This document shows, piece after piece, positions 1 to 17,900 of a DNA stretch of 64,000 nt. Position numbers and translations under genes: made by a program. Position 1 is the stretch's first letter. Every line of letters starts with the position of its first letter. The notes beneath the pieces are model-generated. The model did no database searches, was not told the DNA's origin, and saw only the letters and a list, made by a program, of their open reading frames with translations. Origin of the DNA: Candidatus Sulfopaludibacter sp. SbA3 (GTDB lineage Bacteria; Acidobacteriota; Terriglobia; Bryobacterales; Bryobacteraceae); the NCBI GenBank assembly GCA_945890485.1, contig CAMDCN010000005.1, forward strand, positions 1 through 64,000, given 5' to 3'.

Positions 1-1178
1 GGGGCAATATAGCCACTCGGCAAGAAACGAACACCGACAGCCCCGGCCTGCTCAAGAAACTGAGGTGTGGGATGGCCAGCGAGGACGCAGAGTTCGATGA
101 TTTTCTGCGTTCCACGTCCCCAACGTTCAACTAGACCGCGACGGAAGAACACCTCAGCGATGAGCGGATTCCGAGGCCGTGACAGGTGCTCCTTCGCCAG
201 CGCTTCGACCGTTAAGCCAAAGGGGAGCCGCCCGTCGCTCCAGATCTCCAGCCGATCGTCGTAGATGGCGACATTGACGGCCCCGCCGGGGATTGAATAG
301 TCCCGATGGACGAAGGCGTTGACTAGGGCTTCCCGCAAGGCTACCGGGGGAAATAGGGGAGCGTCTACCCGCTCGAACACCCCAGGTTCGATCCGACCGG
401 AAACTGGGAGGTGACGGTTCATAAATTGGACAGCCTCCGTAAGGAGGTGAAAGGCGTTTCCGTTCAACTGCCGCTGGTCCAGGAATTCATTCTTGTCGAT
501 TCCCCGAAAACGGGCCAATCGCAATTGGCACTGTGGATAGTGCGCGGATTCGTGTTTTGCGAAGAGGACGGCGGCGGCGTTTGTCAGGGCTTGCCCAGAC
601 CGGAGGCCGAAGCGATCCAAGATGTCGCCCGGCTCGACCGAAGCGGTTGACGGAATTCGTCCGGATTCAATACCCCTGCGCACGGTGGCGCGAAGCTCCG
701 AAAGATCGAGGTCCCTCAGATGGATGGGCGAGGCACTGTTTTCCCACCGTTTGTGGGAGTGCGTTCGATCCATCAGCAAGCGCTGATAGGTCTCTTGTGG
801 CATGACCTGTGTTGTCGAGCCAACGCGCTGATAGGCGCGGCCATCAAACGCAAACACGCGGCTATCGTCGTCAGGTGATACGGACAACGCGAGTATTTCG
901 CTTCGGCTACCCGGTAATTTTATGCGGTCGATGCCCACGGCGACGGGTGGCTCGATTCGCCGTAGGGTCTCGGCAACGTCGCGAAGAGTATTGTCACTGA
1001 CGAGTTGCCCCACCACGGAACCGTCGTTCGCGACCCCGAAAAGAACGGTTCCTCCAGTCCCATTCAGGAAGGCGCACAACGTCTCCGCGGCCCGTGAAAG
1101 TTGGCCAGTTGATTTCTTGAACTCGACCGACGCCGACTCACCGTTTGCGATCAGCGTCTTTACATGGGCAAGAGTCAT
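1..1178 (-). CDS. AlbA_2 (Schlafen-AlbA) DNA-binding / RecG-like ATP-binding protein, C-terminus off the window
   Basis: Translating the minus strand from an ATG at 1178 gives an open frame of more than 390 codons that runs off the left edge. The N-terminal AlbA_2 domain shows the usual S-x-VEFK start and a NGTGGTVLFGV core. The C-terminal half has GHKL-like ATPase features: LREALVNAFVHRDY (N-box), an EIWSDGRLP strand, and RNPLIAEVFFRRGLVERWGRG. Proteins of this type are often annotated as putative transcriptional regulators or RecG-like helicases. They are common in defence and mobile islands, but their biochemical role is mostly unproven. The gene lies 34 bp downstream of the RepA-like gene on the same strand, so the two are probably cotranscribed. 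No good ribosome-binding site sits near the ATG, so the exact start is uncertain. Confidence 0.85.
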   Translation of the reverse strand, partial: MTLAHVKTLIANGESASVEFKKSTGQLSRAAETLCAFLNGTGGTVLFGVANDGSVVGQLVSDNTLRDVAETLRRIEPPVAVGIDRIKLPGSRSEILALSVSPDDDSRVFAFDGRAYQRVGSTTQVMPQETYQRLLMDRTHSHKRWENSASPIHLRDLDLSELRATVRRGIESGRIPSTASVEPGDILDRFGLRSGQALTNAAAVLFAKHESAHYPQCQLRLARFRGIDKNEFLDQRQLNGNAFHLLTEAVQFMNRHLPVSGRIEPGVFERVDAPLFPPVALREALVNAFVHRDYSIPGGAVNVAIYDDRLEIWSDGRLPFGLTVEALAKEHLSRPRNPLIAEVFFRRGLVERWGRGTQKIIELCVLAGHPTPQFLEQAGAVGVRFLPSGYIA

Positions 1179-1212
1179 TCTGAGGTGCGGGCGGAGAGTT
1201 GATTCTCCTTCC

Positions 1213-2133
1213 CTATTGTCCACTGAAGCGAACTTGCACCGCAGCACGGCGGTCGATCTTTAGATTCTGACCATCTCCGCTAATAGCCGCGGGACAATCT
1301 GGCCAAAGAGCCCGGATCGTCCGCAACCACTGTTCGAGCATGGCCCGGAATCGACTTGGGCGGGAGTACTCAACACAGCCCAGTTGCCGGGTGAGTCCAT
1401 ATGGGCCAAAGAGCGGGATCGACTCGGGACCTTTGGCAACGAAGCACCGGTAGCTCAGCCACATGAACAAGTCGAGAAGCGCTGGCGCGGCGGCGAGGAC
1501 TTTGACTGCTTCGAGGTCCGCGGGAATGGGATGGCATGAGATTTCGGAATAGAATTCGTCGCTGAGGGTGATTGTGTTATAACCAGACGGCGCTTCCCCG
1601 GAGCGGCTATACCAAATCTCCGCTTCCTTTAGGAAGTTGAATCGGCTGCGGTGGATGACAGTGGCCGTCGAGCGAGTAAATTCGGTTGAAAAGAACATGG
1701 AGGCACCGAATATTCGCTCAAAGGCCGCCACAATCCGTCGGTACTCTTTGCCGCCCTTCGCCATTCCGAAGGTGTCGAGCATCTCGGCCGCCGACCGGAA
1801 TCGGACTGTCTGGCTTTTCTGCCGTACCGCCAGCGTCGCTAGGAAAATGAGAACTAGGCGGTCTTGCCCGAAAGGAAGTCCGAACTGGGGGTGGCCGGTG
1901 ATCTGGAGGAGGAAGTTGCCGTTACGCCGCTCAAAGAGCAGTTGTTCGTTCGGAGGTCGCCGGATCGGCAATCCACACAAGATGAAGGGGCGGGAAGTAA
2001 ACGCTAACGGCTGTCGGCCCTCCTCACGGTTGGCGCGGACAAGCGCGATGCCCTCCGCCTGTTTGAGCCGGTACCGGGAAACCAGCAGGTCTCCGTGGCT
2101 ATCCCTGAGTATCGTTTCAGCCTTTACCAGCAA
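1213..2133 (-). CDS. RepA-like plasmid replication protein, element A copy
   Basis: This 306-residue protein resembles the plasmid-encoded RepA family (RepA_C type). Typical segments are GHPQFGLPFGQDRL, a basic FGMAKGGKEYRRI helix (about residues 121-133) and a leucine-rich ALLDLFMWLSYR segment near residue 220. It would be expected to bind iterons and start replication of an excised circular form. It is about four-fifths identical by eye to the protein at 7089-8036. The start is a TTG codon, supported by GAGGTGA just upstream. The paralogue has the same Shine-Dalgarno sequence before an ATG. Its C-terminal tail differs from that of the paralogue. A RepA homologue on a chromosome without partition genes fits an integrative element or satellite. 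The family call is from memory of the family. Confidence 0.75.
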   Translation of the reverse strand: MLVKAETILRDSHGDLLVSRYRLKQAEGIALVRANREEGRQPLAFTSRPFILCGLPIRRPPNEQLLFERRNGNFLLQITGHPQFGLPFGQDRLVLIFLATLAVRQKSQTVRFRSAAEMLDTFGMAKGGKEYRRIVAAFERIFGASMFFSTEFTRSTATVIHRSRFNFLKEAEIWYSRSGEAPSGYNTITLSDEFYSEISCHPIPADLEAVKVLAAAPALLDLFMWLSYRCFVAKGPESIPLFGPYGLTRQLGCVEYSRPSRFRAMLEQWLRTIRALWPDCPAAISGDGQNLKIDRRAAVQVRFSGQ

Positions 2134-2213
2134 GCCCTCACCTCACGCATTTCGGTTGCGTGAGGGGCTAAATCGCCATCAGGTTGAAGAAGGAATTTGC
2201 AGTTCCAGACTCG

Positions 2214-2231
2214 TTACTGCGATTACTGCGT
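2214..2231 (+). repeat. Iteron-like direct repeat upstream of RepA (element A)
   Basis: Two adjacent 9-bp units, TTACTGCGA and TTACTGCGT, lie about 80 bp upstream of the RepA-like start. The same layout, with ACTCCG in place of ACTGCG, occurs 64 bp upstream of the second RepA-like gene. Paired 9-bp direct repeats next to a rep gene suggest RepA binding or an origin. That role is inference. Confidence 0.5.
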
Positions 2232-2322
2232 TAAGCCCGGTTTTCACTTTTCTCTAAGGTTCCAGGTGGTCAGGATTGCCGCCATGGTCGCATATGTTCT
2301 TTATTTGCGAATGATCGTCGGA

Positions 2323-2373
2323 TTCCCAAGCTGGACGTCGTGGGTTCGAATCCCATCTCCCGCTCCATTTAGA
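2323..2373 (+). repeat. Attachment-site copy 1: 3' half of tRNA-Gly(CCC)
   Basis: These 51 bp are identical to 8219-8269. They contain the anticodon loop (TTCCCAA, anticodon CCC), the 3' side of the anticodon stem, a complete T-arm (GGGTTCGAATCCC) and an acceptor 3' strand ending in CCA at 2365-2367, typical of a bacterial tRNA-Gly. The sequence 5' of the anticodon loop cannot form a D-arm or a 5' acceptor strand, so this is a fragment and not a tRNA gene. The repeat starts at the anticodon loop, which is a common crossover point for tRNA-targeting tyrosine recombinases. Confidence 0.9.
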
Positions 2374-2398
2374 ATCAATCAGTTACAGTGATTTCGAG

Positions 2399-2420
2399 GC
2401 ACCCAATTGGGTGCTTTTTT
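2399..2420 (+). terminator. Intrinsic terminator at the left end of element B
   Basis: A perfect 16-bp palindrome, GCACCCAATTGGGTGC, is followed directly by six T. It lies 32 bp past the CCA end of the tRNA-Gly fragment. Such an element end would supply a terminator for the tRNA that is rebuilt when it integrates. That role is inferred. Confidence 0.8.
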
Positions 2421-2488
2421 CATGTGAGTTGGACGTCGGAACTGCAAGCTGTTGATTGGAGGGAGGTTATGGTCCACTCCCAAAACGC

Positions 2489-2508
2489 AAACGGAGTAAT
2501 CGGAGTAC
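2489..2508 (+). repeat. 20-bp motif, left-end copy
   Basis: AAACGGAGTAATCGGAGTAC is the exact reverse complement of 8100-8119 at the other end of element B. It contains two CGGAGTA(A/C) units at 9-10 bp spacing. It may be a binding site for RepA or for a recombinase or excisionase arm. Confidence 0.75.
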
Positions 2509-2645
2509 AGCGGGCACTTTTCGTGTTTTCAATGACTTGGTGGGCCTACCGCCTCGCAAAGCCGTGCGAACAGTCGTGGATAAGCTGGACGTCATCCGCC
2601 TCAGAACCGCGCACTGGAATGGCATGATAGGGACAGCGACGCTCC

Positions 2646-5030
2646 ATGGGAAAAGACGAACTGCTCGCCGCGTTACTGGCTGAAAACCGGCGTTTGCGGG
2701 AATTGCTGGTTCTCCATGGCATTCCGCCCGACCTACCAGAGATAGTCGCAGCGACGCCAGAACCGGCGGCGCCGGCTCTTTCAGAGACAGAAAAGATTCG
2801 CATCTTTCGAAACCTGTTTCGGGGGCGGGAAGACGTCTACGCCGTTCGCTGGGAGCGGGCGGATGGCCGCAAGGGATACATGCCTCGGTCGGAGCGGGAC
2901 TGGCGGGCCTACAACGCTGCCCCGCAATCGGACAAAGAACGCGTTGACCGGGAGACGCGAAAGTACTTCCCTCTCGACGATGAGGCAGTTCGAGCTCATC
3001 TTCAGGGAAGGCTGACGATCGGGATCTACCCGCTCCTACAAGACGAAACCTGCTGGTTTCTGGCGGCGGATTTCGACAAGGCATCATGGCGCGACGACAC
3101 GGCCGCGTTTCTGAAAACCTGCGAAAAGTATGGCGTGCCGGCGTATCGCGAGGTCTCCCGCTCTGGCAATGGCGGCCATGTATGGATCTTCTTTGAGCAG
3201 AACGTCCCGGGGAGTTTGGCCCGGCGGCTTGGCGCATTCCTGCTGACTCAGACGATGGAGAGCCGCCACCAGATCGGGCTCGATTCCTACGACCGGTTCT
3301 TCCCGAATCAGGACACGCTTCCGAAAGGAGGCTTCGGAAATCTGATCGCCGTTCCCTTGCAGCGGAAGCCGCGCAACGAGGGCAAGAGCGTCTTCGTCAA
3401 TACTGACCTGGAACCGCATCCGGACCAGTGGACCTTTCTGTTGGGCGTCAAGCGCCTTCGACTGTCTGACCTGGAAACACTTGTGGCTGAGGCGCAAAAA
3501 CAGGGAGACATCATTGGGGTCCGGATAAGCGCGATAGACGATGACGACAGCCCGGATCCTTGGACCCTGCCGCCGTCACGAAAGCGTCCGGATAGGCCAA
3601 TCGATGGCCCCTTCCCACGCGAGGTTCATGTCGTCCGCGCCAATCAAGTATTCATTGAGAAGCAGGGCCTGCCGGCTGCCATGTTGAATCGACTCCTGCG
3701 GATTGCGGCATTTCAGAACCCCGAGTTTTATAAAGCACAGGCGATGCGCCTGCCGACGTTCGGCAAGCCCCGGGTGGTGTCGTGTGGCCAAGACCTTGCC
3801 CGGCACTTGGCGTTGCCGCGCGGCTGTTTGCAGGAAGTCGCCGCGTTTCTCAAAGAGTACGGTATTCAGATGGTGACGCGGGACGAACGGTTTGCCGGGA
3901 CTCCGCTTTCGTGCTCGTTTCAAGGAACGCTTCGTGTGCACCAGGCTGAGTCGGTGGACGCGATTATGCAGCATGATGAGGGTGTCGTGAGCGCCCCAAC
4001 CGCCTTTGGTAAGACGGCGATCGCCTCGTGCTTGATTGCCAGGCGAGGTGTCAACACGCTGGTGATTGTCCATCGGCAGCAGTTGTTGGACCAATGGCGG
4101 GAGCGGTTGGCTATGTTTCTGGAACTGCCAATTGGCGAGATTGGACAGATTGGCGGGAGCAAAACGAAGCGCACGGGGCTGATCGATGTTGCGATTGTTC
4201 AGAGCCTCTATCAGGACCACGCAGTGAAGGATTTCGTTGCGGAGTATGGACATGTCGTAGTCGACGAATGCCATCATCTCTCGGCGGTCACCTTTGAAAA
4301 AGTGCTGGCAGCGGTAAAAGCGAAATACATCCTGGGGCTGACTGCCACGCCGGTCCGTAAGGATGGGCATCAACCGATCATCTTCATGCAGTGCGGGCCT
4401 ATTCGATACAAAATGGATGCCAGGCTAATGACTGAGCAGAACCCATTTGACCATGTCGTTCTTCCACGTTCCACCGCGTTTACCGGCATGACGCAGGCTG
4501 GGGACGCGAGCATTCAGGATCTGTATGCCGAAATGGTGAAAGACGCTGACCGCAATGAGCAGATCGTTGCCGACATGATGACCGCGGTGGATGGTGGCCG
4601 CTCCCCGCTTTTGCTGACAGGGCGAACGGAACATCTGGCGTATTTTGCATCCGCACTGGCCGGACGCGTCCAACACGTTCTTGTACTTCGGGGCGGGCTG
4701 GGCGCCAAGCAGCGCAAGGAGCTATGGCAGCGACTGGCAGCGATTCCGGAGTCGGAGCCGCGGGTGATTCTTGCCACGGGCAGCTACGTTGGCGAGGGCT
4801 TTGACGATGCACGGCTCGACACGCTATTCCTTGCGATGCCGATTTCGTGGAAGGGAACGCTACAGCAGTACGTGGGACGCTTGCATCGGCTGCACGACAA
4901 CAAGAGGGTCGTCCAGGTTTATGACTACGTCGACGTCAATATCCGGATGCTCGCGCGGATGTACGAACGGCGACTCCGCGGATACTCCGATATGGGCTAC
5001 CGGATCGGTGGCACGAATCAGACGGAATGA
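2646..5030 (+). CDS. TOTE conflict-system type primase-helicase (AEP primase + superfamily 2 helicase)
   Basis: This is a 794-residue two-part protein. Residues 1-20 form a short helical segment. The archaeo-eukaryotic primase domain has a DFD metal-binding pair at about 142-144 (AADFDK), an SRSGNGGHVWIFF motif near 171-183 and a NLIAVPLQ strand, the pattern of the TOTE-type AEP domain. The helicase half has Walker A APTAFGKT at about 450, DECHH near 540, GLTATP near 563 and QYVGRLHR near 740, so all core SF2 motifs are intact. TOTE systems were proposed from comparative genomics to act in conflict with invasive DNA; the activity of this protein is inferred. The gene is the first cargo gene of element B and is followed, after 258 bp, by an AlbA_2 ATPase. 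An ATG start fits the beginning of the helical segment. Confidence 0.88.
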   Translation: MGKDELLAALLAENRRLRELLVLHGIPPDLPEIVAATPEPAAPALSETEKIRIFRNLFRGREDVYAVRWERADGRKGYMPRSERDWRAYNAAPQSDKERVDRETRKYFPLDDEAVRAHLQGRLTIGIYPLLQDETCWFLAADFDKASWRDDTAAFLKTCEKYGVPAYREVSRSGNGGHVWIFFEQNVPGSLARRLGAFLLTQTMESRHQIGLDSYDRFFPNQDTLPKGGFGNLIAVPLQRKPRNEGKSVFVNTDLEPHPDQWTFLLGVKRLRLSDLETLVAEAQKQGDIIGVRISAIDDDDSPDPWTLPPSRKRPDRPIDGPFPREVHVVRANQVFIEKQGLPAAMLNRLLRIAAFQNPEFYKAQAMRLPTFGKPRVVSCGQDLARHLALPRGCLQEVAAFLKEYGIQMVTRDERFAGTPLSCSFQGTLRVHQAESVDAIMQHDEGVVSAPTAFGKTAIASCLIARRGVNTLVIVHRQQLLDQWRERLAMFLELPIGEIGQIGGSKTKRTGLIDVAIVQSLYQDHAVKDFVAEYGHVVVDECHHLSAVTFEKVLAAVKAKYILGLTATPVRKDGHQPIIFMQCGPIRYKMDARLMTEQNPFDHVVLPRSTAFTGMTQAGDASIQDLYAEMVKDADRNEQIVADMMTAVDGGRSPLLLTGRTEHLAYFASALAGRVQHVLVLRGGLGAKQRKELWQRLAAIPESEPRVILATGSYVGEGFDDARLDTLFLAMPISWKGTLQQYVGRLHRLHDNKRVVQVYDYVDVNIRMLARMYERRLRGYSDMGYRIGGTNQTE

Positions 5031-5062
5031 GCCCGTGGCTCACGCCCGCGGTTAGACCTCGG

Positions 5063-5166
5063 CGCCTTTGATGCAAAATGCACCGTCTAGTATCAAAAGG
5101 CGATGCATAGAAGTGATTGATAAGAAAACGTTTGCGATTCTTGCTTTGCGTTTCTTTGCATCGCCT
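5063..5166. repeat. Nested inverted repeats between the two cargo genes of element B
   Basis: AGGCGATGCA at 5098-5107 pairs perfectly with TGCATCGCCT at 5157-5166 across a 49-bp A+T-rich spacer. CGCCTTTGAT (5063-5072) is also nearly complementary to ATCAAAAGGCG (5092-5102). The repeats fill most of the 258-bp gap before the ATPase gene. They could be an operator, an origin-like site or a terminator region; no function can be assigned. Confidence 0.55.
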
Positions 5167-5288
5167 AAAGTCTGTTCCAATCATCCGAGTCGGAAGAACT
5201 TGCGGCAGGTCCTGATAAATGCTCCATTCCGGGGTGCATCGCGCGACTTCCGACCACCGGGGCGCAACACCGATAATAGAGGTGGTCC

Positions 5289-6980
5289 ATGACTGCCGCC
5301 GAACTGCGCCCAAAGCTCGAAGAACTTCGCCGGCTCCCCGCTGAGACGGAGTGGGTTGAGTTCAAGCACAACAACTCCAACCCTGAGGAGATCGGCGAGT
5401 ACATCTGCGCGATCTCGAATGGTGCAGCTCTCCATGGCAAGCACATGGGGTACGTCGTTTGGGGGGTAGAGGACGGTAGTCGCGCCGTCGTGGGGACACG
5501 CTTTCAACCGAAGACCGCAAAGAAAGGCAATGAGCAATTGGAGAACTGGTTGCTTCGGCTGCTCGAACCGCGGATCGACTTTTCCATCCACGAGTTCGAG
5601 GTCGATGGTAAACCCATCGTGCTGTTCGCTGTCCAAGGTGCCAATTCACGCCCGGTACGGTTCGGTGGCGAGGAGTATATTCGCGTCGGAAGCTACAAAA
5701 AGAAGCTGAAGGATTATCCAGAGAAAGAACGTCGGCTTTGGCAACTGCTGTCGAACCACAACACTGATTGGTCAGCGCAAATCGTTCCGAGTGCGACCAT
5801 TGCGGATCTCGATCGGGCTGCGCTCGATTTCGGCCGGGCTCAGTACCGCCAGAAGAATCTGCAAAATGCGGCGGAGATCGACGCCTGGGACGACGTCACC
5901 TTTCTGAACAAAGCCAAGGTCCTTATCGGCGGTAAGGTGACGCACACCGCCATTGTCCTTCTCGGAAAGCCAGAGACGGCCGCGTATATTGCACCTGCTC
6001 AGGCGCGAATTACCTGGGTGCTTCGGGACGAGAGGAATGAGGAGAAGGACTACGCCCACTTCGATCCTCCGTTCCTCCTGGCGAGTGACAACGTCCTAAA
6101 CAAAATTCGAAACCTCACGATTCGCCATCTGCCGAGCGGTACGCTGTTTCCACAGGAGCTGTCACAGTATGACCCGTGGGTGATCCGAGAGACGCTGCAT
6201 AACTGCATCGCCCACCAGGACTATAACCTGCGGGCTCGGATCAATGTGGTCGAGTCGCCGACATCCCTCCTTTTCACCAACGCAGGCAGCTTCATTCCTG
6301 GCAGCGTGGAGGAGATGATTCGCAGTGATGCTCCCCCTGGTATCTACCGCAATCCGTTCCTTGCCCAGGCGATGGTTAGCTTGAATATGATCGATACGAT
6401 CGGCAGCGGTATCAAGAGGATGTTCAGGCGGCAGAAGGAACGAAGTTTTCCGATGCCAGACTATGACCTGAGCTCAGACGAACGGGTCGCGGTGCGTTTG
6501 ACCGGCCAGGTGCTCGACGAGAATTACACACAGCTCTTATTGAGCGCTACGGAACTTGACCTCCTGGACGTGATCGCGCTCGACCGTGTTCAGAAAAAGC
6601 TGCCGCTGAGTGACGAGGCTTTCGCACGCTTGAAAGCGGAGAAGCTCATCGAGGGACGGCGGCCCAATATCTACGTCTCCGCAAGGGTCGCTACCGTAAC
6701 CGGGGACAAAGCCGCCTACATTAAGAATCGAGCGTTCGATAAGACTCACTATAAAAGTATGGTGATTGGGTACCTGCGCCAATTTGAACAGGCCACCCGC
6801 AAGGATTTGGATGCACTTCTCATCGCGAAGCTCTCTGAAGCTATGAACGCGAAGCAAAAGAAGGCGTTCGTAACGAATTTGCTGCAAGAGATGAAAATGG
6901 ACGGTCAGATTGAGCCGGACGGGGTGACCCGTTGGGCAACGTGGCGTCTGCCTAAGGAGCGGAGAAAAGAGGGTTCTTGA
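5289..6980 (+). CDS. AlbA_2 (Schlafen-AlbA) domain ATP-binding protein, element B
   Basis: This 563-residue protein starts at an ATG preceded by GAGGTGG. Residues 1-150 are an AlbA_2 domain (TEWVEFKHNN, an YICAISNGAALHGK helix and an YVVWGVED strand). The middle has a GHKL-like ATPase region with RETLHNCIAHQDY (N-box), LLFTNAGSFIPG and NPFLAQAMVSLNMIDTIGSGI. The last 150 residues look like winged-helix segments. The protein is longer than, and clearly different from, the AlbA_2 ATPase of element A, although the fold is the same. AlbA_2 ATPases often accompany helicases in defence loci, and its position beside the primase-helicase suggests a shared function. That partnership is inferred from context. 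It is convergent with the RepA-like gene. Confidence 0.85.
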   Translation: MTAAELRPKLEELRRLPAETEWVEFKHNNSNPEEIGEYICAISNGAALHGKHMGYVVWGVEDGSRAVVGTRFQPKTAKKGNEQLENWLLRLLEPRIDFSIHEFEVDGKPIVLFAVQGANSRPVRFGGEEYIRVGSYKKKLKDYPEKERRLWQLLSNHNTDWSAQIVPSATIADLDRAALDFGRAQYRQKNLQNAAEIDAWDDVTFLNKAKVLIGGKVTHTAIVLLGKPETAAYIAPAQARITWVLRDERNEEKDYAHFDPPFLLASDNVLNKIRNLTIRHLPSGTLFPQELSQYDPWVIRETLHNCIAHQDYNLRARINVVESPTSLLFTNAGSFIPGSVEEMIRSDAPPGIYRNPFLAQAMVSLNMIDTIGSGIKRMFRRQKERSFPMPDYDLSSDERVAVRLTGQVLDENYTQLLLSATELDLLDVIALDRVQKKLPLSDEAFARLKAEKLIEGRRPNIYVSARVATVTGDKAAYIKNRAFDKTHYKSMVIGYLRQFEQATRKDLDALLIAKLSEAMNAKQKKAFVTNLLQEMKMDGQIEPDGVTRWATWRLPKERRKEGS

Positions 6981-7088
6981 TGAGCCTTCGCACAGGCGCC
7001 AAGCCGCAAGCCATTATGTTTCAACAGTTTGCGTATATCTAGGCAGGGCCTCGGAGAGTTCCGCTAGATTGAGATTTAGATATACGGC

Positions 7089-8036
7089 CTACGTGGCAAT
7101 TGGAATAGGCAGAATTGCGGTGCGCCGATCGATTCTCAGTGAGCGTCCATCGGCCCCGATGAATGCGGGACACTCCGGCCAGAGGGAGCGGATTGTCCGG
7201 AGCCATTGCTCCAACATCGCGCGGAATCGGCTGGGGCGAGAGTATTCGACGCAGCCGAGCTGCTGGGTGAGTCCGAATGGGCCAAACAACGGGATGACCT
7301 CCGGGCCCTTGGCTACGAAACAGCGATAGCTGAGCCACATAAACAGATCCAGTAGCGCCGGCGCCGCCGCGAGGATCTTGATTGCTTCGAGATCGGCCGG
7401 GATCGGGTGGCCGGAGACCTCAGCGTAGAACTCATCGGTAAGCGTAATGACGTTTTCGCCGGTGGAACCCTCCGCGGAGCGGCTGTACCAGATCTCAGCC
7501 TCCCGCAGGAAATTGAAGCGGCCACGGTGGACAACGGTCGCCGTGCAGCGGCTAGATTCCGCTGAAAAGAAGATCGTCGCGCCGAAGATGCGTTCAAAAG
7601 CGCCCACGATCCGGCGATACTCCTTTCCGCCCTTCGCCATGCCAAAGCAATCGAGCATCTCCGCGGCGGAACGAAACCGGACAACCTTGCTTTTCTGGCG
7701 GACTGCCAGAGTCGCCAGGAAGATGAGGACCAGCCGGTCCTGCCCAAACGGCAGGCCGAATTGAGGGTGTCCGGTAATCTGAAGCAGAAAGTTCCCGTTC
7801 CGCCGCTCAAAGAGCAACTGGTCCGTCGGCGGCTTCCGGACGGGGAGACCGCAAAGTATGAACGGGCGGGAAGTGAAAGCAAGCGCCTGCTGCCCGCTCT
7901 CCCGATTGGAGCGGACCAACGCAATTCCCTCCGCCTGCTTGAGCCGATAGCGCGAGACGACAAACTCGCCGTGCGTCTCGCGTAGTACGTCTCCGGCTCT
8001 TGCCAAGCCTCGATTTTCGGAGCATACTTGCCCCAT
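7089..8036 (-). CDS. RepA-like plasmid replication protein, element B copy
   Basis: This 315-residue homologue of the protein at 1213-2133 shares long identical blocks, for example GHPQFGLPFGQDRL and ALLDLFMWLSYR. The first 10-15 residues and the last 10 or so differ. The ATG start is preceded by GAGGTGA at ideal spacing. The iteron-like repeat lies 64 bp upstream and the att copy 183 bp upstream. The strong conservation of RepA against fully different cargo suggests that RepA and the right end are the constant core of a family of elements. The expected role is replication initiation of an excised circle, inferred from the family. Confidence 0.78.
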   Translation of the reverse strand: MGQVCSENRGLARAGDVLRETHGEFVVSRYRLKQAEGIALVRSNRESGQQALAFTSRPFILCGLPVRKPPTDQLLFERRNGNFLLQITGHPQFGLPFGQDRLVLIFLATLAVRQKSKVVRFRSAAEMLDCFGMAKGGKEYRRIVGAFERIFGATIFFSAESSRCTATVVHRGRFNFLREAEIWYSRSAEGSTGENVITLTDEFYAEVSGHPIPADLEAIKILAAAPALLDLFMWLSYRCFVAKGPEVIPLFGPFGLTQQLGCVEYSRPSRFRAMLEQWLRTIRSLWPECPAFIGADGRSLRIDRRTAILPIPIAT

Positions 8037-8082
8037 GGATCACCTCTTTCGAAGGCAATCCGGTGCTCTTGGGGACCCATCC

Positions 8083-8120
8083 TAAACGGAGCAATTTTTG
8101 TACTCCGATTACTCCGTTTA
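8083..8120. repeat. RepA-proximal repeat region and right-end copy of the 20-bp motif
   Basis: The exact reverse complement of 2489-2508 lies at 8100-8119. It contains two ACTCCG units 10 bp apart. TAAACGGAG (8083-8091) and CTCCGTTTA (8112-8120) form a perfect inverted pair around them, giving three CGGAGT-like half-sites in 38 bp. The layout resembles a compact rep-binding or recombination arm site. Confidence 0.65.
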
Positions 8121-8218
8121 AGCGCGTTTTCGGGTACAACATGAAAACTCAGCGTATTTCTATGGTCAGGATTTACGCCATGGACGCAGAAGTTCTTTAT
8201 TTTCAAATGACCTGCAAG

Positions 8219-8269
8219 TTCCCAAGCTGGACGTCGTGGGTTCGAATCCCATCTCCCGCTCCATTTAGA
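8219..8269 (+). repeat. Attachment-site copy 2: 3' half of tRNA-Gly(CCC)
   Basis: This is the second identical copy of the 51-bp tRNA-Gly fragment, with CCA at 8261-8263. It ends element B; the next gene is chromosomal-type arsC 46 bp further on. The intact tRNA-Gly gene is not in this window. By the usual geometry it would lie left of element A. Confidence 0.88.
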
Positions 8270-8295
8270 CCGTTTCGCACGCACGGCCGCCACAC

Positions 8296-8316
8296 AGCAA
8301 GGCTAGGTTCCTTGCT
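8296..8316 (-). terminator. Hairpin just after arsC
   Basis: AGCAAGG (8296-8302) and CCTTGCT (8310-8316) form a 7-bp stem with a 7-nt loop directly at the arsC stop codon. No T-run follows, so this is at best a weak or factor-assisted terminator. Confidence 0.35.
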
Positions 8317-8729
8317 TACGCTTTCCTCCCGAATTCGCGCACCAATACAAGAAGTTCATCCCGAATCCGGCGAAACGCCGCTCGCCTTTCCTCTTCGCTT
8401 CCCGTCACTGCCGCCGGATCTTCGAGCCCCCAATGAATTCTCCGCGTTGCAGCGGGAAAAACCGGACAAGACTCTTTAGCGTTGTCACACACCGTCACGA
8501 CATACGCAAACTCCTGCCCCAGAAACTCATCGATCGTCTTCGACCGGTGCGTCGACAGGTCGATTCCTATCTCCGCCATCACGGCAACAGCCTCCGGTCT
8601 GACGAATGTAGCCCGTGTGCCCGCGCTAAACACGTCGAATCGGTCGCCCACCTCACTACGAAACAGGCCCTCGCCCATCTGGCTCCGGGCCGAATTCGCC
8701 GTGCACAAAACTAAAATCTTCGGCTTCAT
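8316..8729 (-). CDS. arsC: Arsenate reductase, thioredoxin-coupled low-molecular-weight phosphatase type
   Basis: This 137-residue protein is the usual length for the family. It reduces arsenate to arsenite in the cytoplasm. The P-loop is C9-TANSA-R15. The two resolving cysteines, C81 and C88 (VCDNAKESC), sit where the Staphylococcus-type enzyme has C82 and C89, so the triple-cysteine relay looks complete. It is the last gene of the arsR-led minus-strand group, six bases after the secreted paralogue. The product would feed the Acr3 exporter encoded divergently. Confidence 0.93.
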   Translation of the reverse strand: MKPKILVLCTANSARSQMGEGLFRSEVGDRFDVFSAGTRATFVRPEAVAVMAEIGIDLSTHRSKTIDEFLGQEFAYVVTVCDNAKESCPVFPAATRRIHWGLEDPAAVTGSEEERRAAFRRIRDELLVLVREFGRKA

Positions 8730-8735
8730 ACAGGC

Positions 8736-9224
8736 CTATAGCTTCTTGCGGATCGCCGTCTCGTAGTACTCGCGGAATCGCTTCTGGATGTCATCCCGCA
8801 CGGTGCGGAACACTGCCAATTTCTCCGTATCGGTCCCGGTAGCCTTCGCCGGGTCGGGAAATCCGATATGTACGCGCTTGCCCACCTTACCCGTAAAGTT
8901 GGGACAGTTTTTATCGGCGTCGTCGCAAACCGTGATCACGAAATCGAACGATTGCCCTGTGAACTGGTTCACCTTCTTCGGATATCCGCTGGAGATGTCC
9001 ACGCCAACTTCCTTCATCGATTGGATCGCGAACGGGTTCACGCGCGGCGAGGGGTTGGTGCCCGCGGAAAATACCGCCAAGCGGCTGTCCCACGACTGCA
9101 GGAAACCCGCCGACATTTGGCTGCGGGCCGAATTGCCCGTGCACAAAATCAGCACGCGAGCTTTTGGCGGCGCCTCGGCCAAGGCAAATGACGAAACAAG
9201 CAGGAAACTAACTAAGAATTTCAT
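8736..9224 (-). CDS. ArsC-like low-molecular-weight phosphatase with a signal peptide
   Basis: This 162-residue protein starts at an ATG that overlaps the arsR stop (ATGA) and has CAGGAG upstream. Residues 1-16 (MKFLVSFLLVSSFALA) are a clear export signal. The rest matches ArsC: C28-TGNSA-R34 and VCDDADKNC with both resolving cysteines. All three catalytic cysteines are therefore kept in a protein that appears to be exported, which is unusual because the known relay depends on cytoplasmic thioredoxin. It could be a periplasmic arsenate reductase using another thiol donor, or a phosphatase. A longer reading upstream is unlikely because it would run inside arsR. Confidence 0.85.
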   Translation of the reverse strand: MKFLVSFLLVSSFALAEAPPKARVLILCTGNSARSQMSAGFLQSWDSRLAVFSAGTNPSPRVNPFAIQSMKEVGVDISSGYPKKVNQFTGQSFDFVITVCDDADKNCPNFTGKVGKRVHIGFPDPAKATGTDTEKLAVFRTVRDDIQKRFREYYETAIRKKL

Positions 9225-9580
9225 CTGGACTCCTGACGGCAGATTTTGAAAACGCTCTCCGCTTCGACGACATGCGTCTTCGCGCAGCATTGGGAAAACA
9301 AGAAAGCCAATAGGTCTTCAAGCACCTTCGGGTTCGCCGTGTAACGCAAAAACGTTCCTTCGCGTTGGACATGCACCAAGTCTTCAATTTTGAGCTTCTC
9401 AAGATGGTGCGACACCGTGGATGGCTGCATCCCCAACTCATTCTGGATTTCGCCCGCCACCATCCCGCCCGGATGCGCCCGCAGCAAATGGTAAATGATC
9501 CGCAGACGGGGCTCCGTCCCTAGCGCCGCCAAAATATCGGCGAACTTCACGAAATCGATGCTCTGCTCTCTTGGCGGCAA
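9221..9580 (-). CDS. arsR: ArsR-family repressor of the arsenic genes
   Basis: This winged-helix repressor would release DNA on binding arsenite. The HTH region (VAGEIQNELGMQPSTVSHHLEKL) and the wing (EDLVHVQREGTFLRY) are clear. The classic ELCVCDL metal motif is absent; a C-terminal cysteine pair (SQCCAKTH) is the likely sensor. A TTG at 9580 was chosen because AAAGGG lies six bases before it. A TTG at 9610 is also open but has no ribosome-binding site and would leave only 28 bp to the divergent acr3. Its stop overlaps the start of the next gene. Confidence 0.88.
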   Translation of the reverse strand: MPPREQSIDFVKFADILAALGTEPRLRIIYHLLRAHPGGMVAGEIQNELGMQPSTVSHHLEKLKIEDLVHVQREGTFLRYTANPKVLEDLLAFLFSQCCAKTHVVEAESVFKICRQESR

Positions 9581-9638
9581 TCGTGTCCCTTTGGTACTTT
9601 GATATTTCAACTATAATCGAAACAAGGCGAAAGTCAAG
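9581..9638. promoter_or_regulatory. Divergent arsR/acr3 promoter-operator region
   Basis: The gap contains a perfect TATAAT at 9612-9617 for acr3, with a TTGGTA 15 bp upstream. It is inside an A+T-rich, imperfectly palindromic stretch (TTTGATATTTCA...ATCGAAA). An ArsR operator here would control both directions; this is inferred from position. Confidence 0.5.
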
Positions 9639-10685
9639 ATGAACCTCTTTGAACGATATCTGACCCTCTGGGTGGCCCTCTGCATGGGCCTCGGAATCCT
9701 ATTGGGCAAGCTTGCGCCGGGGACGGTCGACTGGCTCCGGAGGTTAGAGATTGGAGAAGGAAGCCAGATCAACGGTCCCATCGCCGTGCTCATCTGGCTG
9801 ATGATCGTGCCGATGATGATGAAAGTGGACTTCGCCGCCATTCGTCGCGTCGGGGAGCGGCCTCGCGGTTTACTGATCACCCTGTTCGTCAATTGGGTCG
9901 TAAAGCCTTTTACCATGGCCTTCCTGGCCTGGGTCTTTTTCCGTTTCGTTTTCGCCGCATGGATCACTGAGGCAGAGGCCTCCCAGTACATTGCCGGCTG
10001 CATTATCCTCGCGGCCGCTCCCTGCAGCGCGATGGTGTTCGTGTGGAGCTACCTTACCGAAGGGGATGCCGCCTATACCCTGGTACAGGTCTCGGTCAAT
10101 GACCTCCTGATGCTGGCCCTCTTCGCGCCCATTATCCGGTACCTGGTCAGCGGCGCGGCCTCGCTCGAAGTACCGTGGCAAATTCTGGTCTATTCCGTCA
10201 TTGTCTTCATCGTGATCCCCCTCGTCGCCGGAGTCCTGCTGCGGAACTGGTTTGTGTCGCGACGCGGTCTCACCTGGTTTGATGAGACTCTGATGCCGCG
10301 GTTCGCCCCGGTCAGCATGGCCGCCCTGCTGCTCACTCTCGTCCTCATCTTCGGGTTCCAGGCCGACAACATTACCGGAAAGTTCAGTCACGTTCTGTTG
10401 ATCGCGGTTCCCATTTTGCTACAGGTCTACTTCATCTTCGCGCTAGGCTACGGGTTGATGGTGTGGTTCAAAGTTCAATACAACGTGGCGGCGCCGGGGT
10501 CGTTGATTGGCGCTAGCAACTTCTTTGAGATCGCCCTGGCTACCGCCATCGCCCTCTTCGGCCCGGAGTCGGGCGCCGCGCTGGCGACCGTTGTCGGTGT
10601 TTTGATTGAGGTTCCAGTTATGCTTTCCATTTGCGTGATGTGCAATCGAACACGGCACTGGTTCCCGGATTACCAAAGCGAATAG
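9639..10685 (+). CDS. acr3: Arsenite efflux permease, ACR3 family
   Basis: This 348-residue inner-membrane protein has about ten hydrophobic segments and exports arsenite. The conserved AAPCSAMVFVWS segment, with the family's essential cysteine, lies near residues 125-136. Other family features are WLMIVPMMMKVDF in the second helix and a C-terminal NNFE-like segment (ASNFFEIALATAI). It is divergent from arsR and shares its short control region. An AAGG lies 13 bases before the ATG. OsmC and pirin genes follow on the same strand with gaps of 7 and 25 bp. Confidence 0.95.
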   Translation: MNLFERYLTLWVALCMGLGILLGKLAPGTVDWLRRLEIGEGSQINGPIAVLIWLMIVPMMMKVDFAAIRRVGERPRGLLITLFVNWVVKPFTMAFLAWVFFRFVFAAWITEAEASQYIAGCIILAAAPCSAMVFVWSYLTEGDAAYTLVQVSVNDLLMLALFAPIIRYLVSGAASLEVPWQILVYSVIVFIVIPLVAGVLLRNWFVSRRGLTWFDETLMPRFAPVSMAALLLTLVLIFGFQADNITGKFSHVLLIAVPILLQVYFIFALGYGLMVWFKVQYNVAAPGSLIGASNFFEIALATAIALFGPESGAALATVVGVLIEVPVMLSICVMCNRTRHWFPDYQSE

Positions 10686-10692
10686 TGCAACC

Positions 10693-11103
10693 ATGATCCC
10701 CTTACTCGAATACAGCGTCACCGCGCGGCGCATCAGCCCTGACGAAAGCCGGGCCAACTGCAAAGAGTCCGAGCTCATTCTCGACACCGCGCTCGCCGGC
10801 CGGCGCGACGCGTTTAACCCCGCCGAACTCTTCCTCGCCTCCATCGCCGCCTGCATGTTGAAGGGCATCGAACGCGTAGCGCCGATGCTCCAGTTCTCCT
10901 TCCGTGGCGTCACCGTTCGTCTGCACGGCATACGCCAGGACAAACCACCGAAGATGCTGCGCGTCGATTACGAAATTACGGTGGAAACAGACGAGCCGGA
11001 CCGTCGGCTCGAGCTCCTCCACGAAAACATCCGCAAGTTCGGAACAATCTCGAACACTGTGGCCGCGGCCTGCATCCTAGAAGGGAAAATTATTCGCAAG
11101 TAG
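10693..11103 (+). CDS. OsmC family protein
   Basis: This 136-residue protein of the OsmC/Ohr fold is a cytoplasmic thiol peroxidase-like family. The conserved helix NPAELFLASIAACMLKGIERVA carries one cysteine. The second conserved cysteine is in AACILEGKI near the C-terminus. It starts seven bases after acr3, so the two are probably cotranscribed. Its role may be defence against oxidative by-products of metalloid stress. That role is inferred from context. Confidence 0.85.
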   Translation: MIPLLEYSVTARRISPDESRANCKESELILDTALAGRRDAFNPAELFLASIAACMLKGIERVAPMLQFSFRGVTVRLHGIRQDKPPKMLRVDYEITVETDEPDRRLELLHENIRKFGTISNTVAAACILEGKIIRK

Positions 11104-11128
11104 GGCCGTCTAGGCCCGCAAGGAGACG

Positions 11129-12001
11129 ATGATCGTGGAGAAGAAAACGCTTCTGAGTCAACATGCCTTCGGTTCGCAGCATTGGGTCGGCGACGGGTTC
11201 CCCGTCCGCAACCTGTTCCCGTCGAATGGGGTCGCTGACGAGATCAACCCCTTCCTCATGCTGGACTACGCCGGCCCTGCCCACTTCCCGCCGTCGGATC
11301 AGCCCCGCGGCGTCGAGGAGCATCCTCATCGCGGCTTCGAAACCGTCACCATCGCCTATCAAGGCTCCGTCGACCATCGCGACTCCGCAGGCAACGCGGG
11401 CACCATTCACCCCGGCGACGTCCAATGGATGACTGCCGCCTCCGGTGTCGTTCACGAAGAAAAGCACGGCCGCGAATTCACCGCCACTGGCGGGACGTTC
11501 GAAATGGTCCAACTTTGGGTGAATTTGCCAGCGGTCGTCAAGATGACCCCGCCCCGCTATCAGAGCATCACGAGCGCCGAGATTCCGTCGGTCGACCTAG
11601 CCCACGGCGTGGTCGCCCGCGTCATCGCCGGCGAACTCAGCGGAGCACACGGCCCAGCCAAAACCTTCACTCCCATCACGCTCGTCGATCTCCGCCTTGC
11701 CGCCGGAAGCCGCGCCACGCTGGAACTGCCCGCCGGCCAGAACCTCGGCGTCGTCCTGCTCCGTGGAGAGGTCTCCGTCCAGGGCCAGCCGATGAGCGGC
11801 GAAGCGCAGATCGCCCTGCTTAGCCCTTCCGGGCAAGCGCTCGAACTGGGCGCCGAAACCGACTCCCTTGTGCTCCTGCTCGGCGGCGAACCGATCAACG
11901 AGCCCGTCGCCAGCTATGGCCCGTTCGTCATGAACACGCAGGACGAAATTCGCCAAGCGGTTGCCGACTATCGGGCCGGACGCATGGGTTCGCTAAGCTG
12001 A
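11129..12001 (+). CDS. Pirin family bicupin
   Basis: This 290-residue protein has the pirin N-terminal cupin with the metal-binding cluster EEHPHRGFETVT (around residues 63-74) and DVQWMTAASGVVHEE further on. The C-terminal cupin is about residues 170-270. An AAGGAG lies four bases before the ATG. Bacterial pirins include quercetinase-like YhaK and redox-sensing members; the substrate here is unknown. It ends the acr3-osmC-pirin run and overlaps the convergent DUF2892 gene by nine bases. Confidence 0.9.
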   Translation: MIVEKKTLLSQHAFGSQHWVGDGFPVRNLFPSNGVADEINPFLMLDYAGPAHFPPSDQPRGVEEHPHRGFETVTIAYQGSVDHRDSAGNAGTIHPGDVQWMTAASGVVHEEKHGREFTATGGTFEMVQLWVNLPAVVKMTPPRYQSITSAEIPSVDLAHGVVARVIAGELSGAHGPAKTFTPITLVDLRLAAGSRATLELPAGQNLGVVLLRGEVSVQGQPMSGEAQIALLSPSGQALELGAETDSLVLLLGGEPINEPVASYGPFVMNTQDEIRQAVADYRAGRMGSLS

Positions 12002-12184
12002 TCGGACGCCGATCTTTTTCAAGATCGTAATCATCGGGCACCAGTTGGAAAACGCCGACTGGAACAGGTTCAGCCCAATGAAAATCGTGAAGTAGATCCA
12101 GCGTGGATCCACATAGTGGCTCAGCGCGAGGCTGACGAGAATCAGCGCCCCGGCAATCATTCTTAGGTAACGGTCAACAGTCAT
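11993..12184 (-). CDS. DUF2892 (YgaP-like transmembrane) protein
   Basis: This 63-residue protein has two predicted membrane helices (about residues 8-22 and 28-45) and the family segment FSNWCPMITILKKIGV. GAGGAG precedes the ATG. It lies two bases downstream of the RND pump gene and is probably the last gene of that operon. DUF2892 proteins are often linked to sulfur or metal stress genes, but no function is established. Confidence 0.85.
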   Translation of the reverse strand: MTVDRYLRMIAGALILVSLALSHYVDPRWIYFTIFIGLNLFQSAFSNWCPMITILKKIGVRSA

Positions 12185-12186
12185 GG

Positions 12187-15338
<3,152 letters not shown>

Positions 15339-15342
<4 letters not shown>

Positions 15343-16493
15343 GGACGCACCTCCACCGGCGCACCATCCGCCAAGCCAGCCGGCCGCTGCAGAATCAACC
15401 GGTCCCCGGCCCGCAGCCCGGAAAGAATCTCCACCATGTCTTCCCGCGAAGCGCCCAGACTCACGAGCCGCGCACGCGCATATCCACTCTCTTCCACCAT
15501 CACGGATTGCAGTTGCCCCTGCGCCAGAACGGCTCCCCGAGGCACCGCCAACACCTGTCGCTGGCCTGTCGCGAATCGCGCCCGGCCGAACAAGCCGCCC
15601 CGCAACGCCGGATGCGCCGGCAAGTCGATCTTGGCCAAAAAGGCCCGCGACCCTGGGTCAACAGACGGAGCAATTTCCACGACCCGTCCCGTCATCGGCG
15701 TATCGATGGCATCAATCGTCACACTGATTGACGCCCCCTGCTTCACCGCGGACAGTCTGCTCTCTTCCACGCTCGCTTCCAGGCGATACGTCCCCGCCTG
15801 TTCCAAGTCCACTAGCGGCGCGCCCGGCGCCGCCAATGCCCCCGGCTCCACCCGTCGCGCAATCACCATTCCAGAAAACGGCGCCTTTACCTCGGAATAG
15901 CCTCGCGCGATCGAAGCCTGTTGCACCGCCTGTTCTGCCTGCCGGATCTTATCGTTGATCTGATTCCGCCTCGCCCGCGCCATCGACACCGCCGCTTCGT
16001 GTACCTTCACGCGCGAAGTGAACTCATCGAATTCCTGCGCCGAAAGCGAACGCTTATCAAACAGCTCCTTCATCCGCCGCAGTGTCGATTGCGCCAGTTC
16101 CAACTGCGCCTGCGCGGAGACGATTGCGCTATCGGCTTCCGGAATCGCGCTCTTGGCTTCGTCCAATCCCGCCTGCGCCTGCCGCTGGCCCGTCTCCAGG
16201 TCCCGCGAATCCACGGTCACCAGCGTTTGCCCCGCAGCCACCCGGTCGCCCGCCTGCACCCGGACCTCCAGCACCGTTCCCATCACGCGGCTCGATAGCG
16301 TCGTCGATGTCCGCGCGCGCACCGTGCCCACCGCCTCAAAGCTGTCCGGCCACTCGGTCATAGCCAGCGACGTAACGGTCACGGGTACCTTGGCAGCCGG
16401 AGCGGTCTTGGCCGCCTCCGGCGCATGCTTGCCGCCGCAAGCGCTCAGCGCCACCAGGGCCACCGGCAGTAGAGCAAGTTTATTGAAGAACAT
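15339..16493 (-). CDS. RND periplasmic adaptor (membrane fusion) lipoprotein
   Basis: This 384-residue protein starts at an ATG with GGAG upstream; a longer open frame exists but has no export signal. Residues 1-19 form a lipoprotein signal ending LVALSACGG. It is followed by the barrel-sandwich region ([18 protein letters not shown]), a coiled-coil hairpin (about residues 100-190) and the second half motif [18 protein letters not shown]. It links the pump to the TolC-like channel. It overlaps the TolC gene by 14 bases and the pump gene by four. Confidence 0.92.
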
Positions 16494-17811
16494 TCGAATC
16501 TCCAGAAAGGGTGCCCGCGGCAAGCTGAACAGCAACAGCCGCCAGGCGATGATCGTAGATCGCGGCAATGCGCCGCGTTGTGGCGTCGAGCAAAGCAGTC
16601 TCTGTACGCAGCAGATCCGTGACCGTCGCCAGTCCGGCCTCATAGCGGTTCTTGGTGATTCGCAAGCTCTCTTCCGCTTGCGCCACGGTCGCCGTCGCCA
16701 CCTCGATCCGTTGCTGCGCCGCAGTGAACGCCGCCTGCGATTGCCGCAGTTCCAGGTTCACCCCGGCCTGCGTCTCTCGCTCATTTGCTTTCGATTTCAC
16801 GAGCGCCTGGGCCGACTCGTCCATCCGCGCTCGGTTCGCAAACCCGTCGAACAGATTCCACCGCAACCCCACGCCGAAGTACCAGTTGGTGCCGCCTTGG
16901 TTCACGAACCGTCCCCGATCGGCCTCGAACGCCGCCCGCCCGGTGATTTGCGGATACAGCGCTGACCGAGCCCCAGCTACCTGCGACTCTGCTAACTCCC
17001 GCGCCAACCCGGCCTGCCGTAACTCCGGACGTTCGATCGTCGAACTCACTGTGGGAGCCGCCGGGGCCGCGGTCAGCGGCGTCGACAGCGAAACGACTTC
17101 GTCGAGCGGCTGCCCCAACGCCTCGTTCAATGCCGCCCGTGCGATATCCACTCCCGATTGCCGCTGAATCTGTTGCTCCCGCATTGCTGCCAAGTGAACC
17201 CTAATGGAGAGCACATCCGCATCCGTCGATAGGCCGGCTGAACGAACCGCCTCGGCCCGCGCCAAGTCGGCTTCCGCTGACTGCACCGCCTGTTGCGCCG
17301 CCTTCAGAAACTGCTCCGCCAACGTCACCGTGTGATAGGCACGAGCCACCTTCGCAATGAGTTGCATTTTTGTGTGCCGCTCCTGCTCCGCGGAAAGCTT
17401 CTCGCCAAGCTGCGCCGATTTCACCCCGGAACGTACGCCGCCGAAGTCGTAGAGCACCTGGTCAACGCTGACCAGCGATTGGAAATTGTTGACGAACCCC
17501 GGCCGGTTCAGCGCGTCGATCGCGAAGTTGGCTGCCGAAAATCGCCGCTGCGTCAACAGCATCGAGAACGCGAACACCGGATTATTCGATGTCTGGAACG
17601 ACTCGGCGTAGTTCACTTTGGGCAGGTAGCCGGAGCGCGCCTGCGCCGTCCGGGCCACGGCGGCGCCGGTCTGCGCCTTCGCCGCATCCATCGACGGGTG
17701 CTGAGCCAAGGCTTTGGCGACCGCCTCGGGCAAGGTGAGTCCTTCAGCGCGCAAGGGAGAGGCGATCACCCACAGGGCAAGTAGGGGAATGGGAAGCAGG
17801 TTTCTGGTCAC
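16480..17811 (-). CDS. TolC family outer-membrane efflux channel
   Basis: A protein of about 443 residues with two copies of the outer-membrane efflux (OEP) repeat, for example YLPKVNYAESFQTSN and YPQITGRAAFEADRG, and long helical stretches. A signal peptide (LLPIPLLALWVIASPLRA) follows closely after a GTG at 17811, which was chosen as the start. A TTG at 17850 is also open but neither has a good ribosome-binding site. It is the first gene of the tripartite efflux operon. Confidence 0.9.
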   Translation of the reverse strand: MTRNLLPIPLLALWVIASPLRAEGLTLPEAVAKALAQHPSMDAAKAQTGAAVARTAQARSGYLPKVNYAESFQTSNNPVFAFSMLLTQRRFSAANFAIDALNRPGFVNNFQSLVSVDQVLYDFGGVRSGVKSAQLGEKLSAEQERHTKMQLIAKVARAYHTVTLAEQFLKAAQQAVQSAEADLARAEAVRSAGLSTDADVLSIRVHLAAMREQQIQRQSGVDIARAALNEALGQPLDEVVSLSTPLTAAPAAPTVSSTIERPELRQAGLARELAESQVAGARSALYPQITGRAAFEADRGRFVNQGGTNWYFGVGLRWNLFDGFANRARMDESAQALVKSKANERETQAGVNLELRQSQAAFTAAQQRIEVATATVAQAEESLRITKNRYEAGLATVTDLLRTETALLDATTRRIAAIYDHRLAAVAVQLAAGTLSGDSNVLQ

Positions 17812-17900
17812 GTCGATTGAAAGGATACGTTTTGCGGCAAAAAGTGACAAGGGTAATTTCCGTCGCTGAGGACGAGGCGATGCGGTATACTAAAGGGATT

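Follow-up and report, generated by a model that had tools for sequence, protein, structure and literature searches.

Integrase-less elements that are flanked by att sites and lie in tandem with ICE-type elements are described as CIMEs (cis-mobilizable elements), and in the parts of the review considered here they usually appear as decayed remnants (PMC5704250). TOTE conflict systems are composed of TPR, OB, TBP and Effector, according to the sections used of PMC12458937. The portion consulted of the Ellin6076 genome paper describes genomic islands with integrases and tRNAs (PMC3174227). In the literature searched, neither the ICE presented below nor integrase-less, RepA-ended elements at tRNA-Gly were found to be described. 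Actinomycete AICEs of the pSAM2 type target tRNAs and carry the initiator near att, with int/xis adjoining the initiator. SGI1 and SXT encode their own integrase.

The locus lies at the beginning of the window, i.e. the whole stretch of 64,000 nucleotides that was analysed (bases 1–64000 of contig C5). The genome (G000) comprises 7.13 Mb in 35 contigs. All evidence stems from assemblies, mostly MAGs. A first-pass annotation of the window had proposed two tandem elements (A and B) at a tRNA-Gly and knew of no named family with their composition. The latter was not upheld, as the anatomy is that of a CIME in the part of PMC5704250 considered. We regard it as likely that A, B and probably the unit on contig C34 are integrase-less, att-flanked derivatives of an ICE family at tRNA-Gly(CCC), which would be mobilised by the ICE integrase and replicated by RepA.

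Att copies and element structure

The window contains a perfect direct repeat at 2323–2373 and 8219–8269 (both + strand; 51 of 51 bp identical). Of these, 46 bp correspond to the 3' half of tRNA-Gly(CCC), starting with the first anticodon-loop base and ending one base beyond the tRNA, with zero mismatches with respect to the intact tRNA at C10:231307-231381. The mismatch-free half is found at four sites of the genome: twice on C5, once on C34 and in the intact tRNA on C10. No intact tRNA is present at either repeat of the window (ARAGORN reported a single tRNA for the whole window, a tRNA-Pro at 17901). The first copy is the right end of element A and the left end of element B, and the second copy is the right end of B. 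The repeat, its start at the anticodon loop and its position around B and at the end of A had thus been read correctly in the first-pass annotation. The 51-bp repeat is nested in a repeat of 107 bp (2267–2373 and 8163–8269, 88% alike). The 56 bp preceding the core are 77% alike, close to the previous estimate by eye (about 75% over the last 59 bp).

Element B (2369–8218) is complete, with ~5.9 kb from att to att. On the left, an arm-type motif (TACTCCGATTACTCC, 2493–2507, − strand) is located 125 bp inward of the 46-bp core. It is followed by a fusion of an AEP primase (PF22548 AEP-TOTE) and a DEAD/ResIII helicase (2646–5030, +; 794 aa, E 1.9e-90 for the AEP-TOTE primase model), an AlbA_2 + HATPase_c_4 protein (RecG C-terminal-like; 5289–6980, +) and RepA (7089–8036, −; PF10134, PF04796). 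The same arm-type motif (TACTCCGATTACTCC) recurs at the right end (8101–8115, +). None of the three genes with Pfam matches in B is one for conjugative transfer, as in a CIME; element A is incomplete. No PF00589 integrase was found on C5 before 326249 and none on C34 (11 PF00589 matches genome-wide). Among the genes of B, there was no TPR, OB or TBP partner, which sets B apart from TOTE conflict systems; its primase-helicase could serve defence or the replication of the element itself. The ars genes at 8270–11167 were considered as part of B and rejected, because they lie outside its right att.

Only the right end of element A (1–2373) is contained in the window. Window base 1 is contig base 1, the remainder lies past the contig end, and a complete element A inside the window was rejected. 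The right end carries an AlbA_2 + HATPase_c_4 protein with its 3' end cut by the contig end (3–1247, −; PF04326, PF13749), RepA (1213–2133, −; PF10134, PF04796) and an arm-type motif (TACTGCGATTACTGC, 2215–2229, +). The AlbA_2-ATPase theme shared by A and B and the two RepA genes pointing away from the right att had both been noticed before and are confirmed.

A third RepA-att end was found on C34, a contig of 5.6 kb whose first 2393 bases are 93% identical to window 1–2394. The AlbA_2 + HATPase_c_4 proteins of both copies are 96% identical over 414 codons. Past its own att copy, C34 carries other genes, including a 361-aa protein without Pfam match and a 656-aa reading. The latter has no Pfam match itself, and by eye it continues a protein of locus L028 that was matched as 2OG-Fe(II) oxygenase (PF13640). 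L028, from another MAG (on a contig of G407), shows in one piece of 6.6 kb an intact tRNA-Gly, pieces resembling the 361-aa protein, the oxygenase, an AlbA_2 gene, RepA and att. Based on this order, element A probably consists of C34:2323-5646 (left end) and C5:1-2373, with a gap between them. C34:1-2373 would then close a different unit on its right side, which may be a third small element or the ICE described below.

The near-identical starts of C5 and C34 in a repeat-broken assembly would also be expected from an assembly artefact or from a local segmental duplication of the tRNA fragment with the RepA gene. The same architecture occurs in many independent assemblies, including G063 with 4 contigs and G252 with 2 contigs, which makes this explanation extremely improbable. 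The tandem accretion of site-specific elements at one tRNA-Gly proposed at first pass is supported.

The ICE family at tRNA-Gly(CCC)

The intact tRNA-Gly(CCC) on C10 is followed, 149 bp downstream, by a tyrosine integrase reading towards the tRNA. Behind the integrase there are a signal peptidase S26-like protein, a VirD4-type coupling protein, an ArdC-like protein and a relaxase, and further on a ParA-like protein (slightly under the Pfam cut-off) and a VirB-type set (VirB4-, TrbI- and VirB11-type). The stretch hence holds the genes by which an ICE is recognised: integrase (PF00589), relaxase (PF03432), coupling protein (PF02534) and T4SS (PF03135/PF19044, PF03743, PF00437). There was no second att or motif on C10 up to the contig end at 279125, 48 kb on; the terminal sequence is transposase-like by eye, and the contig breaks off before the ICE reaches its right end. 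As in CIMEs, the attL and attR copies flanking the small elements are related to the att copies of an ICE. The first-pass annotation had expected an intact tRNA-Gly to the left. Such a copy exists and has an integrase beside it, but on the separate contig C10, and we infer the tandem order of the ICE and A/B in this genome across contigs.

Three adjacent tyrosine recombinase matches were seen elsewhere in the genome (G000:C19:801-3216) and also in G252, G195 and G335. We take such triplets to resemble 'recombinase in trio' elements.

The complete layout of the family is visible in G063. The order is tRNA-Gly(CCC), arm, integrase, T4SS, cargo, RepA, arm, a 48-bp att, arm and a second integrase. 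The ICE measures 75.8 kb, and its 48-bp att has exactly two identical copies in the 124 kb read. Another 23 relatives of C10 genes, including the VirB-type set, are in the same order, and a 24th is outside, left of the tRNA. Junctions of integrase, att and RepA were also found in L030, L033, L043 and G252. Within this ICE family, RepA marks the right end and the integrase the tRNA-proximal left end.

The previous idea of exchangeable cargo around a constant RepA-plus-end core was supported; what it missed, given the layout in G063, is that this core forms the right-hand terminus of an ICE family. By sequence comparison, the small elements appear to have kept the right end of the parent (RepA, arm motif, ~107 bp and att) and mostly a left end with att and arm. 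The cargo seems swappable and defence-like, with AEP primase-helicase, AlbA_2/HATPase and AbiE-like pairs.

Arm-type motif and tRNA target

The tandem-half-site motif TACT[CG]CGATTACT[CG]C (TACTSCGATTACTSC) had 7 matches in 7.13 Mb, all beside att copies, and 0 in the reversed control. One site is present at each RepA end of A, B and C34, one is inverted at the left end of B, a palindromic pair follows the att of C34 (the presumed left end of A), and one lies between the tRNA and the integrase on C10. Across the class, 40 matches were found in 20 of 399 genomes, compared to 6 control matches in 6 of 399. Nearly all (37 of 40) were ≤200 bp from a tRNA-Gly or its 3' half, one of the 37 being at a tRNA-Gly(TCC). 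The others are in L175 (cut by a contig end), L176 and L179.

All 15 Gly-type RepA-att intervals contained the motif within 1 mismatch (12 exact, 3 with one mismatch), while it was absent within 2 mismatches from all nine Met/Leu-type intervals. The motif thus follows the tRNA target and not RepA, so it probably goes with the integrase. Other tandem half-sites were seen by eye in the Met and Leu intervals, namely TTGGTGACAGT twice in several Met loci and GTAAAC twice in L045.

A different reading of the motif is that of a RepA iteron, i.e. an origin, with the ends defined by RepA instead of the integrase and RepA perhaps acting as directionality factor. The location between RepA and att in every Gly-type interval would agree with this, and the direct half-sites are iteron-like. 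However, the motif also occurs between tRNA and integrase at ICE left ends that have no RepA (C10 of G000, G063, G234, G308 and G323), and it is missing from the five aligned RepA proteins' loci at tRNA-Met, these proteins being 47–69% identical to the RepA of B. We therefore consider an iteron improbable.

An integrase relative (E ≤ 1e-40; best four candidates per genome scored) was found in 15 of the 20 arm-bearing genomes, with partial matches in G332, G397 and G077. At this threshold and among these candidates, there was none in G093, G279, G080, G356 and G364. G080 has a short integrase-like ORF, and the tRNA contig of G279 stops 188 bp past the arm, before any integrase could appear. G093 and G279 have Gly-type RepA ends with no visible helper integrase; either the helpers have departed or lie in assembly gaps, or the elements are stranded.

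RepA

The RepA proteins of A and B match RPA (PF10134) and RepA_C (PF04796) over the cut-offs and are 79% identical to each other. Including both, three such relatives (A, B and C34) are found in the genome. With tblastn, the RepA of B found 278 plasmid records (23–33% identity among the 20 plasmid RepA records listed), and no phage record was among the relatives. A sequence search of the PDB gave no credible match. The top Foldseek match was RctB with E 0.01 and none reached E ≤ 0.001, a weak result from a model with mean pLDDT 56 (a first model with mean pLDDT 46 was dropped). Judged by its domains, RepA is a plasmid-type replication initiator, with initiation itself being predicted.

The 27 named loci that contain a close relative of RepA all came from MAGs of Acidobacteria or of a subgroup of these, 10 of them from Bryobacter, Bryobacteraceae or Bryobacterales. 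Two loci (L026 and L036) begin inside RepA, leaving 25 with upstream sequence. A tRNA 3' end was beside RepA in 24 of these 25 (15 Gly(CCC), 8 Met and 1 Leu); for tRNA-Gly, this is the association that the first-pass annotation had suggested looking for. Of the eight Met-type loci, seven have an intact tRNA and one has a 3' half; the Gly 3' end in L040 is broken by NN. No tRNA 3' end was found beside RepA in L039, which has NN near the place. In the 450 bp upstream, 28 of 44 RepA genes had a tRNA 3'-end pattern, compared to 6 of 236 other ORFs of the same loci; the former count is low since the pattern does not fit this tRNA-Met.

In the Met-type loci L037, L041, L042, L044, L046, L047 and L049, RepA is at the tRNA-proximal end, opposite to the Gly type. 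By eye, the cargo of some of them resembles restriction, AlbA_2 or metal-efflux genes. The seven stretches yielded no second copy of the tRNA 3' half.

The dN/dS of RepA was 0.07–0.12 in six of ten pairs, with dS saturated in the other four. RepA is under purifying selection, which could partly reflect time spent inside ICEs.

Integrase-less elements in related genomes

Besides B (5.9 kb), several complete att-to-att elements yielded no tyrosine integrase: L027 of G383 (6.5 kb), L028 (6.6 kb), L038 (3.4 kb), one element in G093 (23.7 kb), two in G252 (26.7 and 20 kb), one in G400, which spans 29 kb between the intact tRNA and att, and the 9.9-kb L045 at tRNA-Leu. PF00589 was searched in ten genomes (G000, G252, G063, G195, G356, G029, G093, G383, G332 and G335). 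For L028, L038, G400 and L045, the absence is based on similarity to the C10 integrase and on ORF reading. L027 carries an AbiE-like pair and a primase-helicase, and L038 contains RepA and an AbiE-like pair, with no intact tRNA within the 20.9 kb around the element. L028 and G400 are located directly at an intact tRNA-Gly(CCC) and are complete to the distal att; the contig of G400 does not extend past its att. Just past the right att of L028, there is a fragment similar to the helicase of B (E 8.5e-7), and the notion of L028 as a lone element was rejected for this reason. An exact left-end arm motif was absent from G400, from the two complete G252 elements and at the third RepA of G252.

The element at tRNA-Leu(GAG) (L045:8925-18962) is bounded by a 71-bp repeat and by eye has sensor kinase, regulator and RND metal-efflux-like genes; its RepA ORF is short (169 aa). 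The 23.7-kb element of G093 (L097/L190, G093:C33:184386-203046) has two giant ORFs of 3467 and 2608 aa, the second SpvB/Tc-like by eye. No intact tRNA-Gly(CCC) was found in G093 (97% complete) and G249 (93%), the matches being limited to Gly(GCC)-type and weaker ones; even so, two tRNA 3' halves are present in G093.

The left end of B (att, 125 bp, inverted arm and primase start, with no integrase; 340 bp) aligns with two places in G383 as well as with L029 and G279, and in part with L038. In G406, a B-type left end is directly at the intact tRNA, and the primase is 92.7% identical to that of B. One of the G383 copies follows a 7.9-kb unit that starts with an integrase relative at the intact tRNA, which makes a possible helper there. 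The RepA end is that of the 75.8-kb ICE, but at the left end the B type is unlike the integrase type.

Between B and G383, dS was 0.31 for the primase and 0.41 for RepA. Both host genes examined in G000 and G383 were saturated at synonymous sites (pS 0.79 for CysD and 0.87 for LysR). Given this discrepancy, movement of the element between lineages is most likely. Each element copy has an att core that corresponds to the tRNA variant of its own host, with two differing sites between G000 and G383 (window 2323–2368). Such host-specific cores next to closely related element genes are as expected from repeated recombination at the tRNA.

These data also bear on the reading that A, B and C34 are passive CIMEs, i.e. 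ICEs which decayed independently in place, kept RepA by chance and were moved solely by a neighbouring ICE in cis. The elements do fit the published description of CIMEs, and there are traces of decay. Next to its left att, the 3.8-kb element of L043 has sequence that weakly resembles an integrase (E 1e-7; the longer ORF has no Pfam match), which is a sign of it. Moreover, the second copy in G063 is a broken ICE with a RepA remnant, and the RepA reading of L028 has one stop. Independent decay is, however, at odds with the same integrase-less left end in several genomes, with synonymous divergence from G383 far below that of the two host genes and with the conservation of RepA, and we regard it as rather unlikely. 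The preferred reading remains that of derivatives mobilised by an ICE. A and B look like more than local wreckage, because the B-type left end is recurrent, the divergence is low compared to host genes, RepA is under selection and elements lie directly at intact tRNAs.

Chromosomal site

The RepA att of G093 lies 157 bp from a stretch that is collinear (86%) with window 11167–21151, meaning that two species share the chromosomal site of the distal end. Between the right att of B and this stretch (8270–11167), the window has arsenate reductase-like, ArsR-like and Acr3-like genes by eye, which are absent there in G093. A similar ArsC/Acr3 pair is found in G252, 17 kb past the third RepA gene and possibly inside that element.

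For the empty site in relatives that the first-pass annotation had asked for, one probable case was found. In G405, the tRNA-Gly(CCC) is near an alcohol dehydrogenase-like gene, and by eye the same gene is upstream of the tRNA in G406 and G404. No arm, RepA or C10-type integrase was present in the ~12 kb after the tRNA in G405 (genome 83% complete). Hence, G405 is probably an empty site and G406 its filled counterpart, as a single case. A pirin-like neighbour revealed no empty site: 32 of 121 genomes matched, and in the 30 loci scanned within 1.5 kb, att was found only in G093. The search with the LysR neighbour covered 19 genomes, 11 of which had a close LysR (71–100% identical). In seven of the 11, a tRNA-Gly(CCC) was beside it, followed by an integrase relative in five, by an AlbA_2 gene in G314 and by an arm motif in G279, where the contig then breaks off. 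The stretch fetched from the other four had no tRNA-Gly(CCC).

Proposed mechanism and significance

Judging from the anatomy, excision, replication and transfer of the small elements would depend on the integrase of an ICE. The integrase of a co-resident ICE would bind the arm motifs and recombine the 46-bp core, in cis or in trans. The element could then leave or enter alone or jointly with the ICE. In the excised circle, the predicted order is RepA, arm, ~107 bp, core, ~40 to 125 bp and arm. RepA would initiate replication of this circle, which would make its transfer and re-insertion more probable.

The integrase-less form looks like a lineage, with the same ends, a conserved replication gene, low divergence and rotating defence-like cargo. 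If helper-dependent excision holds true, the elements would form an ICE satellite class comparable to phage satellites. They would have a signature that is searchable in any genome (an arm motif, and RepA separated by ~160–300 bp from the 3' end of a tRNA), and the turnover of defence-like genes in these bacteria would be tied to one tRNA site. More tentatively, and with a chance of perhaps one in three in our estimation, this is a distinct class: minimal replicons that possess an initiator and both recombination ends of their own, gave up integrase and conjugation for good, exploit those of helper ICEs of the same tRNA specificity and carry exchangeable anti-phage genes across these Acidobacteriota. 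Sister lineages with arm motifs of their own would then exist at tRNA-Met, tRNA-Leu and other tRNAs.

Comparison with known systems

With TOTE conflict systems, element B shares the match to the AEP-TOTE primase; its other genes, AlbA_2/HATPase and RepA, are different. AICEs of the pSAM2 type are similar in having a replication initiator close to the att of a tRNA-targeting element. Here, in contrast, the ICE has its integrase at one end and RepA at the other, with an initiator of the RPA/RepA_C type. SXT/R391 and SGI1, as ICEs/IMEs with plasmid-type replication in the parts considered of PMC5704250 and PMC4489591, likewise have a replication initiator on an integrating element and toxin-antitoxin cargo, whereas the small elements described here are without integrase.

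There is also a likeness to CIMEs that lie in tandem with an ICE, such as the ICESt1-related elements of Streptococcus thermophilus, which in the portion considered of PMC5704250 share att on both sides, the lack of integrase and transfer genes and the accretion with ICE-type elements at one site. Unlike these, the present elements keep their own RepA and arm motifs at the ends, recur between genomes in the same integrase-less form and also lie directly at an intact tRNA with no integrase unit between. As far as can be judged from sequence, A and B would thus be classed as CIMEs on anatomical grounds; their replication gene is unusual, and there are signs that they spread independently.
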